This document shows, piece after piece, positions 3,657-16,123 of a DNA stretch of 64,000 bases. The notes under the pieces are model-generated. The model made no database searches and had not been told where the DNA came from. It was given only the letters and a program-made list of their open reading frames with translations. Position 1 is the first letter of the stretch. Every line of letters begins with the position of its first letter. The position numbers and the translations under genes were made by a program. The stretch comes from a virus. The stretch lies in the IMG/VR virus record IMGVR_UViG_3300009124_000005, positions 1-64,000 of that record. One strand, 5' to 3'.

Positions 3657-3985
3657 AGACACAGAGTGCTAAAGCGAAAGGTCGTAACTTACAGAAGTGG
3701 GTGAGACAAATGTTGATCGAGATGCTTGATGTCCATCCAGAGGACATTGAGTCTCGGTCTATGGGTGCAGGTGGTGAAGACCTGATAATGGCACGAGCTG
3801 CTAGACAAAAGTTCCCACACTCGATAGAATGTAAGAACGTTGAACGACTCAATGTCTGGGATGCATACGAACAGGCAGCATCAAACTGTGGTGACTATGA
3901 ACCTATCGTAGTCATGAAAAAGAATAGGAAGAAACCTTTAGTGGTTGTTGATGCAGAATACTTCATCGGACTCTTTAATAAATAA
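3653..3985 (+). CDS. Putative PD-(D/E)XK endonuclease
   Basis: 110 residues. RSMGAGGEDLIMARAARQ followed by SIECKN fits the GED ... (E)xK core of small restriction-like or Holliday-resolvase-like nucleases. The start is the ATG at 3653 that overlaps the preceding stop; an upstream in-frame ATG at 3644 is possible. It sits at the end of the nrd cluster, consistent with a DNA-metabolism role. The substrate is unknown. Confidence 0.65.
   Translation: MKTQSAKAKGRNLQKWVRQMLIEMLDVHPEDIESRSMGAGGEDLIMARAARQKFPHSIECKNVERLNVWDAYEQAASNCGDYEPIVVMKKNRKKPLVVVDAEYFIGLFNK
3977..3984 (+). promoter_or_regulatory. Late promoter box AATAAATA
   Basis: T4-type late -10 box 20 nt before the ATG at 4005, the same spacing seen before 36039 and 40035. 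Confidence 0.5.
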
Positions 3986-4304: not shown

Positions 4305-4976
4305 ATGATCAAAACATTATTTGCAGCACTTGCTGCATCTGCCTTGCTTATTCCTGCACAAGCAGAACCAATTAGAGAAAGTGACTACAATACACCACAT
4401 GCCATGGGATGTATGCTCCTTGGTGAATGCACTGGTGGTGTCAATAAAGTATACTCGATTCTTGATATCTCATCGGAGTATGATAACGAAGAAAAATTCA
4501 CTGGTGTTACTGGTGAGTTTCATAATATGTTACATTCACTCAATCAAGTTGGTGTGAATGTATTTCTTGCTGACAGTAAGTATTTTCCAGCAGGACATCG
4601 TGGTGTCTATCATACTTTATCTAATAACTTCTTCCTGAATAAGGATTACATGGGACAACCTAATGTTCTCATGATGGTAATGCGTCACGAAGGATGGCAC
4701 GCAGCACAAGATTGTATGGCAGGTACGATTGACAACAGTCTGATTGCTATCATCAAACCAGAGGATGAAGTTCCAATGATCTGGCGTGTAATGGCAGAGC
4801 GTACATATCCTACTAATGCTGTACCATGGGAAGCAGAAGCAGGTTGGGCAGGTAGAACTGAAAATATGACAATGAATGCTCTTGCTGCTTGTGCTGGTGG
4901 TAATATGTGGGAAATATACCCTCCCACTCCTTTGACACGTAAGTATCTGGTAGACTTCGGATACATTAAAGAGTAA
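4305..4976 (+). CDS. Exported HExxH zinc-metallopeptidase-like protein
   Basis: 223 residues. MIKTLFAALAASALLIPAQA is a clear Sec signal peptide. MRHEGWHAAQD (about residue 125-135) gives HEGWH, the HExxH zinc motif, and VPWEAEAGWAG about 45 residues later offers a glutamate as a gluzincin-type third ligand. The mature protein would act outside the cytoplasm, perhaps on the host envelope. It has its own promoter and heads a run of small membrane/secreted proteins. The peptidase assignment rests on motif geometry only. Confidence 0.6.
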   Translation: MIKTLFAALAASALLIPAQAEPIRESDYNTPHAMGCMLLGECTGGVNKVYSILDISSEYDNEEKFTGVTGEFHNMLHSLNQVGVNVFLADSKYFPAGHRGVYHTLSNNFFLNKDYMGQPNVLMMVMRHEGWHAAQDCMAGTIDNSLIAIIKPEDEVPMIWRVMAERTYPTNAVPWEAEAGWAGRTENMTMNALAACAGGNMWEIYPPTPLTRKYLVDFGYIKE

Positions 4977-9064: not shown

Positions 9065-9273
9065 TTGATGACTGGCGATACAGTGACGAACGTATGGAGA
9101 TGAGACAAAAAGTTTATGGTCTCCTCCTGACAAAATTTGGTTCTGCCCTTGACGAAAATGGAGAACCTATGTATACTATGGACAGCATTACACAATGCTC
9201 TCACGACTGGGTATCACAAGGCAATGTAAGGACAGATGGCATAGTGGCATACTTTAAAGCATACTATGCTTGA
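9061..9273 (+). CDS. Small protein (70 aa), unknown
   Basis: MIDDWRYSDERMEMRQKVY...; helical. Start overlaps the previous stop (ATGA); a longer frame from 9040 is less likely. Its TGA stop is embedded in the -35 box of the tmRNA promoter. Confidence 0.75.
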   Translation: MIDDWRYSDERMEMRQKVYGLLLTKFGSALDENGEPMYTMDSITQCSHDWVSQGNVRTDGIVAYFKAYYA

Positions 9274-9298
9274 CAACACCTAATCACTGTGCTAATAT
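9270..9298 (+). promoter_or_regulatory. Strong sigma-70-like promoter of the tmRNA gene
   Basis: Perfect TTGACA at 9270-9275, 17-bp spacer, TATAAT-like TAATAT at 9293-9298. Predicted start near 9305, just before the acceptor piece of the tmRNA. Confidence 0.8.
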
Positions 9299-9304
9299 AT
9301 ACAT

Positions 9305-9563
9305 TGTTCAAGAGGTTGCAAAGTCTGTTGTTCTGGACAGGGGTTCGATTCCCCTCACTTCCATTCTTGGGGGTGCCATGGTTTCGACAGGGCAAAAAGG
9401 TTGTAATTGTTGACGGAACAAAACCATAGATGCAAACACATCTGACTCCGCTGCGAATAACATCGTAGCATTCTCCCGCAGCACCGTTGCTGCCTGAATG
9501 GGAGATGGGGGATAAGTTATCCTTCTAATCCAATAACTCTTGGGGGTGCAATGCCCCTTCTTC
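9305..9563 (+). ncRNA. ssrA: Two-piece (circularly permuted) tmRNA
   Basis: The 3' tRNA-like piece comes first: T-arm stem AGGGG/CCCCT (9339-9343/9351-9355) with loop TTCGATT, then acceptor strand CACTTCC (9356-9362) and A. After a 5-nt spacer the 5' piece starts GGGGGTGCCATGGTTTCGAC (9369 on), the tmRNA signature. GGGGGTG pairs with CACTTCC, and CAGGGCAA (9388-9395) pairs with TTGTTCTG (9328-9335) as helix P2. The tag frame runs GCG at 9453 to TGA at 9495-9497 and encodes ANNIVAFSRSTVAA, close in form to picocyanobacterial tags. A GGGG...CCCC hairpin at 9542-9557 followed by TTCTT closes the gene. CCA is not encoded. Ends are approximate. Confidence 0.88.
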
Positions 9564-9565
9564 AT

Positions 9566-9638
9566 GGGCAAGTAGCATAATGGATAATGCCCCGCTCTTC
9601 TAAAGCGTAGACTGTAGGTTCGAGTCCTACCTTGCCTG
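9566..9638 (+). tRNA. tRNA-Arg (UCU)
   Basis: Acceptor GGGCAAG/CTTGCCT, T loop TTCGAGT, anticodon loop CTTCTAA with TCT. Reads AGA codons, which are common in AT-rich phage genes. Confidence 0.9.
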
Positions 9639-9642
9639 TTTG

Positions 9643-9676
9643 GTAGAGCACTTGTATAAATAAAAGAGTGCTCTAC
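9643..9676 (+). promoter_or_regulatory. Hairpin with late promoter in its loop, before HNH gene
   Basis: Perfect 10-bp inverted repeat GTAGAGCACT (9643-9652) / AGTGCTCTAC (9667-9676). The loop contains TATAAATA (9655-9662). The 3' arm ends 8 nt before the ATG at 9685, so a read-through transcript would hide the ribosome site while a late transcript starting in or after the loop would not. Confidence 0.75.
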
Positions 9677-9684
9677 TAAAACAG

Positions 9685-10107
9685 ATGAAACAAACTGCTA
9701 CCTGTTTAAACTGTTCTACGGTATTTGAATACAACCCTCATCACAAGCGTGGTAAGTATTGTAATAACAAATGCCAGCAAGAGCATAAGAGAAAACAGTT
9801 CATTACTGAATGGAAGCAGGGTTTAGTTTCAGGTGGTTCTTCTTATCACTTATCACAGTATGTGAGAAACCATCTATTAGAGGAAGCAGATTACAAGTGT
9901 TCCAAGTGTGGTTGGACGGGCACTAACATTCATACTGGTAGAGTTCCTTTGGAAATCGACCATATAGATGATGACCCATACAATCATTCTCCTGACAATT
10001 TACAAGTTCTTTGTCCTAATTGTCATGCTTGTAAAACCCAAGCACCTCAAAAAAGCAAGGGTGGGAGATACCAAAATAGAACTCACCCAAAATTCCAGGG
10101 CGATTAG
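9685..10107 (+). CDS. HNH homing endonuclease with N-terminal zinc finger
   Basis: 140 residues. N-terminal C4-type finger (CLNC ... CNNKC), then YKCSKCGWTG, LEIDHIDDDPYNHSPDNLQVLCPNCHACKT, the HNH core with H-D, N and the second CxxC zinc pair. It lies between tRNA-Arg and tRNA-Val; its TAG stop is nucleotides 8-10 of tRNA-Val. Probably a free-standing homing endonuclease targeting this tRNA region. Confidence 0.85.
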   Translation: MKQTATCLNCSTVFEYNPHHKRGKYCNNKCQQEHKRKQFITEWKQGLVSGGSSYHLSQYVRNHLLEEADYKCSKCGWTGTNIHTGRVPLEIDHIDDDPYNHSPDNLQVLCPNCHACKTQAPQKSKGGRYQNRTHPKFQGD

Positions 10108-10169
10108 CGCAGCGGCAGCGCAGTAGATTTACATTCTATTGGTCACTGGTTCAAATCCAGTATCGCCCA
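10098..10169 (+). tRNA. tRNA-Val (UAC)
   Basis: Acceptor GGGCGAT/ATCGCCC plus A; anticodon stem GTAGA/TCTAT, loop TTTACAT with TAC; T loop TTCAAAT. First 10 nt overlap the HNH gene. Confidence 0.9.
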
Positions 10170-12293: not shown

Positions 12294-13046
12294 ATGTTTG
12301 ATAAACCAATTACAATTTATTATCATCAGTATGATAACGATTGTACTAGAAAAGAATCTGAATTCATGTATGAGTCTTGTCTCTCTGTAGACGGTATTGG
12401 ATATGAACCAGAGTCTTTGATATCCATGTCCGATGGTGAAGAGATTTATTCTGCGTGTCCTATTTGGAGACATAGAGAAGAAAGAACTTTTGCTATTCGC
12501 TCTCCTATCGATTTTACAGTACACATCAACAAAGCAAGAAAAGGAATTAGTGTTCCTAACTTCACGCAAGATCAGTTTCAGAACTATGTTTGTGGAAATT
12601 CTGATCCTAGATGGTGTACTGATAAAAGAATTAGTATTCAACTAGCGATTCCAAAGTTTATCTTTTGGACAGATGAAAAAAACATTTGGATAGAGCAAAA
12701 AAATCATTGGAGAACATCAGTAAAAAATAACTTTACTGCTGTTGGTGGGTGGTATAATACCTCCAACTGGACTAGAACTATCAATCCTTGTCTTGATGTT
12801 GTAGATCATAGCAAAGATATTGTTGTTAAGAGAGGCGACATTTTATATGAGGTTGCCTTTCATGCTCCTAAAAAATCTAGGAAAATCTCTTTAGTTAAAC
12901 AAACTCCTCCAAAACAAATTCAAAATAGATTTGTCCGAGGATTTAATATCAAAAGATTTTTACCTAAAAAAACTATAGAATTTGCATTGGGAGATACTTC
13001 TTCTAAATGTCCATTCAGGTTTGGTTCCCCGCAGGATAAGGGTTAA
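12294..13046 (+). CDS. Conserved phage protein (250 aa), unknown
   Basis: Soluble protein rich in aromatic residues (IYYHQYDND, WRTSVKNNFTAVGGWYNTSNW). No signal peptide, no recognised motif; basic C-terminal 50 residues. I do not recognise a family. Its last codons overlap a GC-rich structured segment. Confidence 0.7.
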   Translation: MFDKPITIYYHQYDNDCTRKESEFMYESCLSVDGIGYEPESLISMSDGEEIYSACPIWRHREERTFAIRSPIDFTVHINKARKGISVPNFTQDQFQNYVCGNSDPRWCTDKRISIQLAIPKFIFWTDEKNIWIEQKNHWRTSVKNNFTAVGGWYNTSNWTRTINPCLDVVDHSKDIVVKRGDILYEVAFHAPKKSRKISLVKQTPPKQIQNRFVRGFNIKRFLPKKTIEFALGDTSSKCPFRFGSPQDKG

Positions 13047-13142
13047 GCCTGCTGGTGCGGGTGAAGATATCGCCGCCTGGTTTCTTGTTTCCAGTTAAAG
13101 AACAAGTGGCGTGCATGTGCTCTGGGGTGTGACAACCCCAAC
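13026..13142 (+). other. GC-rich, highly structured segment (possible ncRNA)
   Basis: Several nested inverted repeats: CCCGCA/TGCGGG enclosing CAGG/CCTG, GCGG/CCGC, CTTGTT/AACAAG, CGCC/GGCG, and GGGGT/ACCCC. No open frame covers it. It lies between the 250-aa gene and tRNA-Gly. It could be a structured RNA, an intron or tRNA remnant, or a processing signal; no known family was recognised. Confidence 0.4.
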
Positions 13143-15329: not shown

Positions 15330-15358
15330 GCTCCTTTAGCAATCTGGTGAATGCAGCA
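15330..15358 (+). pseudogene. 5' fragment of a tRNA gene
   Basis: GCTCCTTTAGCAATCTGGTG continuing AATGCAGCA matches the acceptor 5' strand, U8 and D arm of a tRNA and is nearly identical to the intact tRNA-Met at 15804 through TTTAGCAATCTGGT. No anticodon arm follows; the HNH gene begins instead. Confidence 0.6.
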
Positions 15359-15388
15359 TTTTTATAAATAGGTGTATGTATGTATTCA
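15348..15388 (+). promoter_or_regulatory. Hairpin with late promoter in its loop, before second HNH gene
   Basis: TGAATGCA (15348-15355) can pair with TGTATTCA (15381-15388), 8 bp with one G-U. The loop holds TATAAATA (15363-15370). The 3' arm ends 5 nt before the ATG at 15394. Confidence 0.55.
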
Positions 15389-15393
15389 TAACT

Positions 15394-15813
15394 ATGATTG
15401 CTTGTAAATCTTGCGGTAAAGAAGTTCCACAAAGTCTCCGTAAAGGTGGGCGAGCAAAACTTTATTGTAATGAAAGTTGTCGTGCTAAATGGAGGTATAA
15501 AAACGATCCTGTAATCAAAGACAGGAACACTTATACCGAACAAAAAGCAAGAGGTTATTCCAATAAGTGGAAAGCACTTCAATACAAAGGTGGTAAGTGT
15601 CAAACTTGTGGTGAAGATAGACCCGCAACTCTATGTTTTCACCACAAAGACCCGTCAAAAAAATCATTTAATCTTGATGGGAGAACCTTTGCAAATCGTA
15701 AGTGGGAATTTGTTAAGGAGGAAGTTGATAAATGCGACCTTCTTTGCCATAACTGCCACAATGTGCTACACTATGGAGACAGTTGGGGAGAATTCCTAAA
15801 CGAGCTGGTTTAG
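15394..15813 (+). CDS. HNH endonuclease between tRNA sequences
   Basis: 139 residues. MIACKSCGKEVPQ zinc finger with a CNESCRAKW continuation, then CQTCGEDRPATLCFHHKDPSKK and CDLLCHNCHNVLHYG, an HNH-type fold with two CxxC pairs. An upstream in-frame ATG at 15376 is possible but sits in the hairpin. The stop TAG is nucleotides 8-10 of tRNA-Met. A tRNA 5' fragment precedes the gene. Confidence 0.8.
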   Translation: MIACKSCGKEVPQSLRKGGRAKLYCNESCRAKWRYKNDPVIKDRNTYTEQKARGYSNKWKALQYKGGKCQTCGEDRPATLCFHHKDPSKKSFNLDGRTFANRKWEFVKEEVDKCDLLCHNCHNVLHYGDSWGEFLNELV

Positions 15814-15957: not shown

Positions 15958-16123
15958 AAATACATCGGTTAGTTAAGGAATCAACATATTTCTTAACGGT
16001 TCGTAACACCCCAAACCGAGACCTATAGGGTGTATAAATCACGTCTCTCATATCCCCGGCTGAGGGTGCTGGGGAAATAGTAACTCCACCATTCCCTGAT
16101 GGTCTTACTTTTCGTACAAAACA
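15958..16123 (+). promoter_or_regulatory. psbA leader with hairpins and a late-like box
   Basis: 166-nt untranslated leader. GTTAAG/CTTAAC and CCCCGGC/GCTGGGG can form stems; TATAAATC at 16033-16040 resembles a late box 84 nt before the ATG. No open frame of note. Confidence 0.5.

Follow-up and report, generated by a model that had tools for sequence, protein, structure and literature searches.

How might an HNH endonuclease gene that stands in a cluster of tRNA genes be kept from being expressed whenever the cluster is read? The question is raised by HNH1, a gene in a 64,000-nucleotide stretch of cyanophage DNA (the window), itself part of a 91.7-kb virus record. HNH1 (9685–10107, + strand) is intact and encodes 140 aa; it matches PHROG HNH endonuclease (2.5e-17) and Pfam HNH (5.3e-6), the latter above the cut-off, so that an HNH domain is present. 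On the same strand, tRNA-Arg (tct; 9565–9639) is its left neighbour and tRNA-Val (tac; 10098–10169) its right, the latter overlapping the end of HNH1 such that the stop codon TAG (10105–10107) forms positions 8–10 of the tRNA. In S-CAM1 and S-CAM3 the HNH1 gene is absent and the two tRNA genes lie 3 bases apart, within flanking DNA that is 86–91% identical. Judging from this sequence comparison, the gene and the hairpin that precedes it are an insertion between tRNA-Arg and tRNA-Val.

Upstream of HNH1 the window carries a cyanobacterial-type tmRNA (9287–9557, + strand; Rfam RF01851, 126 bits), at whose matching place the S-CAM1 and S-CAM3 records annotate a small hypothetical CDS. A sigma-70-like promoter match (TTGACA-17-TAATAT; 9270–9298, + strand) lies upstream of the tmRNA; it agrees with the consensus at 10 of 12 positions, has an extended TG and is a consensus match only, making it a possible source of early read-through RNA. 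Between this match and HNH1 we found no terminator-like site, and the two observations together make early read-through into HNH1 plausible. Elsewhere in the window we noted wcaG and PhotoRC-II RNA motifs (13023–13120 and 15994–16088, respectively).

A hairpin around a late promoter element

The HNH1 leader contains a perfect 10-bp inverted repeat with arms GTAGAGCACT (9643–9652) and AGTGCTCTAC (9667–9676, both + strand), and the 14-nt loop between them holds TATAAATA (9655–9662, + strand), a T4-type late promoter element that is conserved in relatives; the cyanophage late promoter has been described as NATAAATA (PMC2984593). An earlier sequence-only reading had noted a repeat of this kind around TATAAATA before the first HNH gene, with a 3' arm ending 8 nt ahead of the start codon, and we verified both the arms and the distance to the ATG at 9685. 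Allowing one mismatch lengthens the arms to 14 nt (9639–9652 and 9667–9680), and RNA folding adds an outer helix, CUGUUU/AAACAG (9636–9641 and 9679–9684), that extends the 3' side to 9684 and reaches the ATG, for a leader fold of -24.0 kcal/mol. The predicted helix stops directly before the ATG, which itself stays outside. No AGGA-like Shine-Dalgarno sequence is visible in the leader, and the hairpin, as modelled, would act on the whole start region, with no visible Shine-Dalgarno sequence to hide. The possibility that the hairpin is an intrinsic terminator was rejected, as no T-run follows it.

When 30 nt on each side of a fixed TATAAATA were shuffled, an arm of this length was reached in 33 of 20,000 trials. 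The window holds eight perfect repeats of this size, against a mean of 1.4 in 12 shuffled windows, and none of the latter placed TATAAATA within a repeat loop; among the five + strand TATAAATA sites of the window, arms longer than 5 occur only at HNH1. The shorter motif ATAAATA is no commoner than chance (18 seen, 18 expected), and the promoter call therefore depends on position and on conservation in relatives. The window also contains a second HNH gene (15394–15813, + strand, with ATG 15394 taken as the start; PHROG HNH endonuclease 7.7e-25), preceded by a weaker hairpin with arms TGAATGCA and TGTATTCA, whose loop holds TATAAATA (15363–15370, + strand). Its stop codon TAG again forms positions 8–10 of a tRNA gene, here tRNA-Met (overlap 15804–15813).

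This arrangement suggests a control like that of T4. Early and middle transcripts from upstream of the tmRNA or tRNA-Arg would run on through HNH1 and fold the stem, whose 3' side would reach the region just ahead of the AUG, so that ribosomes would rarely start there. At late times the late sigma factor of the phage would use TATAAATA in the loop, and the late RNA, expected from T4 spacing to begin near 9668 within the 3' arm, would lack the 5' arm and leave the start open. The 91.7-kb fragment yielded no late sigma factor gp55, and since the record is incomplete, this absence is uninformative.

Accessibility of the start region

To compare HNH1 with similar genes, we collected leaders containing TATAAATA by four scans of viral contigs and phage records, which yielded 87 distinct HNH leaders in 12 protein clusters, many of them related to each other. 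As main measures we used the opening energy of the start region and strand-specific folding, picked after two earlier scores had been seen and dropped, an order that weakens the comparison. One of these, the expected base pairs spanning the late start, separated the leaders poorly, since weak pairing in AU-rich sequence of any kind contributes to it; the other, a two-strand duplex energy split at +1, gave no significant difference between HNH and other late genes (p = 0.13), because many leaders have their 5' arm after TATAAATA or a 3' arm that starts before +1. The leaders were grouped after they had been inspected, and 11 nuclease-like genes, several of which were checked, were taken out of the control group on inspection.

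For HNH1, the computed cost of opening the start region is 6.7 kcal/mol in read-through RNA and 1.0 in late RNA, compared with 3.1 and 2.1 when the upstream sequence is shuffled. The 87 HNH leaders behave similarly, at 6.4 kcal/mol for read-through and 2.2 for late RNA (4.1 and 2.7 when shuffled), whereas the corresponding values for the 61 other late genes are 4.2 and 2.4 (3.8 and 2.4 when shuffled); the HNH set differs from these genes taken together with seven S-PM2 genes at p = 0.0015. T4 genes used as positive controls showed large shifts, from 12.1 to 3.9 for segB, where such control is implicated, and from 14.9–15.2 to 0.9–3.7 for e, where it is known. For the HNH leaders the late value stays at 1.9–2.4 for any +1 placed 5–9 nt past TATAAATA, so the result is independent of the exact start. 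The mean drop is at least 3 kcal/mol in 8 of the 12 HNH clusters, and among ordinary late genes roughly one in four shows a drop of this size or more. Some GIY-YIG and additional HNH genes among the intended controls showed the same accessibility behaviour as the HNH set. Strong hairpins around TATAAATA precede GIY-YIG/NUMOD3-type nuclease genes in L151 (3283–3313) and L235 (minus strand, 4641–4672). Separately, S-PM2 (L246) carries late promoters between inverted repeats before the structural genes gp20 (15738) and gp13 (6834), and the gp13 repeat resembles a terminator with the late promoter in its loop.

Two layouts recur among these leaders. In one, shared by the window with RN05-S, DSL-LC03 and numerous contigs, TATAAATA lies in the loop; in the other, which we call the S-CAM3 type, the 5' arm begins right after TATAAATA and the 3' arm extends into the ATG. 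In 93% of the leaders assigned to the S-CAM3 type, structure over the start falls by 3 kcal/mol or more once the RNA begins at the late promoter, and in leaders of this type and in DSL-LC03 the helix includes or touches the ATG. The close relative L010 combines a strong stem with a small computed effect on the start (2.0 versus 0.2), because its spacer is unpaired.

One large sub-family, the HNH2 type, does not fit a start-covering mechanism. In 21 HNH2-type leaders the hairpin brackets TATAAATA and start accessibility is unchanged (2.6 versus 2.3), the hairpin ending too far upstream to cover the start; the second HNH gene of the window is an exception within this type (8.7 versus 4.1). An upstream in-frame ATG was considered as the HNH2-type start and rejected, as stops or frame shifts intervene in several relatives. 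In leaders of this type (for example L135, 3701–3751, and L156, 3930–3989), TATAAATAGGTGTATG is strongly conserved and the 5' arm matches it.

A probable RNA hairpin and its alternatives

Conservation and strand preference bear on whether the repeat acts as RNA or as DNA. Across 14 HNH1 relatives, 94.3% of stem cells are paired and three stem positions have changed on both sides, giving a covariation score that neither any of 500 shuffles nor any slid register attained; the stems include U-G pairs. In HNH leaders the sense strand folds more strongly (z -2.60) than the antisense strand (-2.02; p = 0.0003), whereas other late genes show no significant strand bias (-0.84 and -0.63), and z falls below -1.645 in 76% of HNH leaders compared with 28% of other late genes. 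Covariation and sense-strand bias thus favour an RNA hairpin over a DNA operator, and an added operator role remains compatible with them.

Were the palindrome primarily such an operator, the HNH protein or another factor would bind over the late promoter and repress it. I-TevI does repress itself at a site overlapping its own late promoter (PMC2988022), and HNH2-type leaders, in which the right arm GGTGTATG is retained and the promoter is bracketed while the start is left uncovered, also count in its favour. The stronger folding of the sense strand and the U-G pairs speak against it, as does the S-CAM3-type layout, in which the repeat follows the promoter and its stem contains or adjoins the ATG, an arrangement better suited to RNA. 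We regard an operator as an unlikely explanation of the palindrome, although operator and hairpin could coexist at HNH leaders. The hairpin also starts directly behind tRNA-Arg, and in 45 of the 87 HNH leaders a tRNA ends no more than 60 nt upstream of TATAAATA, as might be expected of an element that processes or stabilises the RNA of the tRNA operon, serving in 3' trimming of tRNA-Arg or in protection from exonucleases, with the loop TATAAATA a minor or unrelated promoter. However, 25 of the 61 other late genes are equally near a tRNA and as a group fold far less strongly, many HNH hairpins are distant from any upstream tRNA, several stems extend into the start codon, and TATAAATA stays within the hairpin or next to it, all of which leaves this role distinctly improbable.

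Composition could in principle suffice, as AU-rich late-gene leaders often fold around TATAAATA, and ordinary late genes do lean the same way, though less strongly, in both their sense z and the fraction below -1.645. The rarity of the HNH1 arm length in local shuffles, the 76% of HNH leaders beyond that threshold and the covariation in HNH1 relatives all disfavour a chance origin, to which we give very little credence. The T4 mechanism is the best explanation of the computed accessibility, the covariation, the sense-strand bias and the recurrence before many HNH genes taken together, and we consider it likely that the HNH1 hairpin would lock translation of a homing-type HNH gene until late transcription opens it. 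HNH relatives keep the layout of hairpin and promoter despite different stem sequences, and by this analogy HNH1 would probably be off early in infection and come on late. For HNH1 itself, we infer within this model that the promoter is used and where the RNA begins, along with repression and homing activity.

Putative tRNA anchors and known systems

The stop codon that HNH1 shares with tRNA-Val belongs to a wider pattern. The HNH stop forms positions 8–10 of the next tRNA gene in 40 of 87 HNH cases and in none of 61 other late genes, the cases often being related and the independent events fewer than these counts (an example outside the window is L002, 2639–2648). Further HNH genes terminate at another TAG within the tRNA, the second, around positions 19–21. 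HNH clusters tend to adjoin one tRNA: tRNA-Met for HNH2, tRNA-Pro for the S-CAM3 type and mostly tRNA-Val for the HNH1 cluster. The placement of the stop codons, together with this preference, points to the tRNA gene as the putative target or anchor of each HNH family. Upstream of several hairpins we also observed an apparent truncated tRNA 5' half (L007, ~1430–1470; L076, ~950–992; L020, ~3945–3972; L024; and the window, ~15335–15360), and in some hairpins the tRNA D-arm sequence GGTAGAGC makes up the 5' arm.

We regard it as possible, if somewhat short of probable, that these genes form a widespread cyanophage class of tRNA-anchored HNH cassettes, each family tending to one isotype, taking its stop from tRNA bases and carrying its own hairpin-gated late promoter, with several stems, including the window's, perhaps using the D-arm fragment GGTAGAGC as 5' arm. 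If so, HNH cassettes could enter an early-transcribed tRNA cluster without early expression or damage to the tRNA gene. On the main reading alone, a classical T4 control known for few genes would extend to marine cyanophages and their free-standing HNH nucleases, recurring in several protein clusters whose stems are unrelated. It becomes testable whether nuclease cassettes depend on such hairpin-gated late promoters to persist in early-transcribed regions, and the link to tRNA, by isotype and by stop codon, provides a concrete target-site hypothesis for HNH nucleases.

We found no description of hairpin-gated control of cyanophage HNH genes in the open-licence papers that we searched. F-CphI of S-PM2 and other cyanophage endonucleases are, like HNH1, free-standing genes of T4-type phages; F-CphI differs in adjoining psbA and in its link to an antisense RNA, and the passages on it that we consulted report no hairpin-gated late promoter (PMC3037559, PMC5931967). 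In T4-type phages, two reviews describe hairpin and late-promoter control for I-TevI, I-TevII, I-TevIII, segB, mobE of Aeh1, e, soc and others (PMC2988022, PMC3014915). T4 segB, like HNH1, is free-standing and flanked by tRNA genes, here tRNA-Ile and tRNA-Arg, with a hairpin that overlaps late-promoter sequence just before the start and computed accessibility that shifts alike; its late promoter is listed as predicted (PMC2988022). Unlike HNH1, segB encodes a nuclease of the GIY-YIG family, its stem includes the ATG, and its promoter is part of the 5' arm, not of the loop; the texts consulted mention no segB stop codon taken from the following tRNA. T4 gene e (lysozyme) is an ordinary phage gene rather than a nuclease gene, but its read-through RNA forms a hairpin with the same computed behaviour, and its late promoters lie in the 5' side of that hairpin (PMC3014915).

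Closer in protein family are mobE and I-TevIII. The mobE gene of Aeromonas phage Aeh1 is a free-standing HNH gene with a hairpin that hides the ribosome site, an effect shown experimentally in papers cited in PMC2988022 and PMC3014915; likened here by description, it differs from HNH1 in being embedded in a ribonucleotide reductase gene rather than in a tRNA cluster. In genes of the I-TevI and I-TevIII kind, hairpins likewise hide the ribosome site and promoters are placed so that late RNA escapes, as shown for I-TevI (PMC2988022), although these genes are intron-encoded and it is a Shine-Dalgarno sequence that is sequestered. The sequence-only reading had proposed T4-like hairpin and late-promoter control of HNH1, a proposal that gains support from layout, computed accessibility, covariation and sense-strand bias; its further remark that HNH1 offers a parallel in an unrelated nuclease family needs correcting in that I-TevIII and mobE, both HNH, were already on record (PMC2988022). 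HNH1 is thus not the first HNH nuclease gene for which such control has been proposed, and joins several T4-type phage genes for which the same control is already known.
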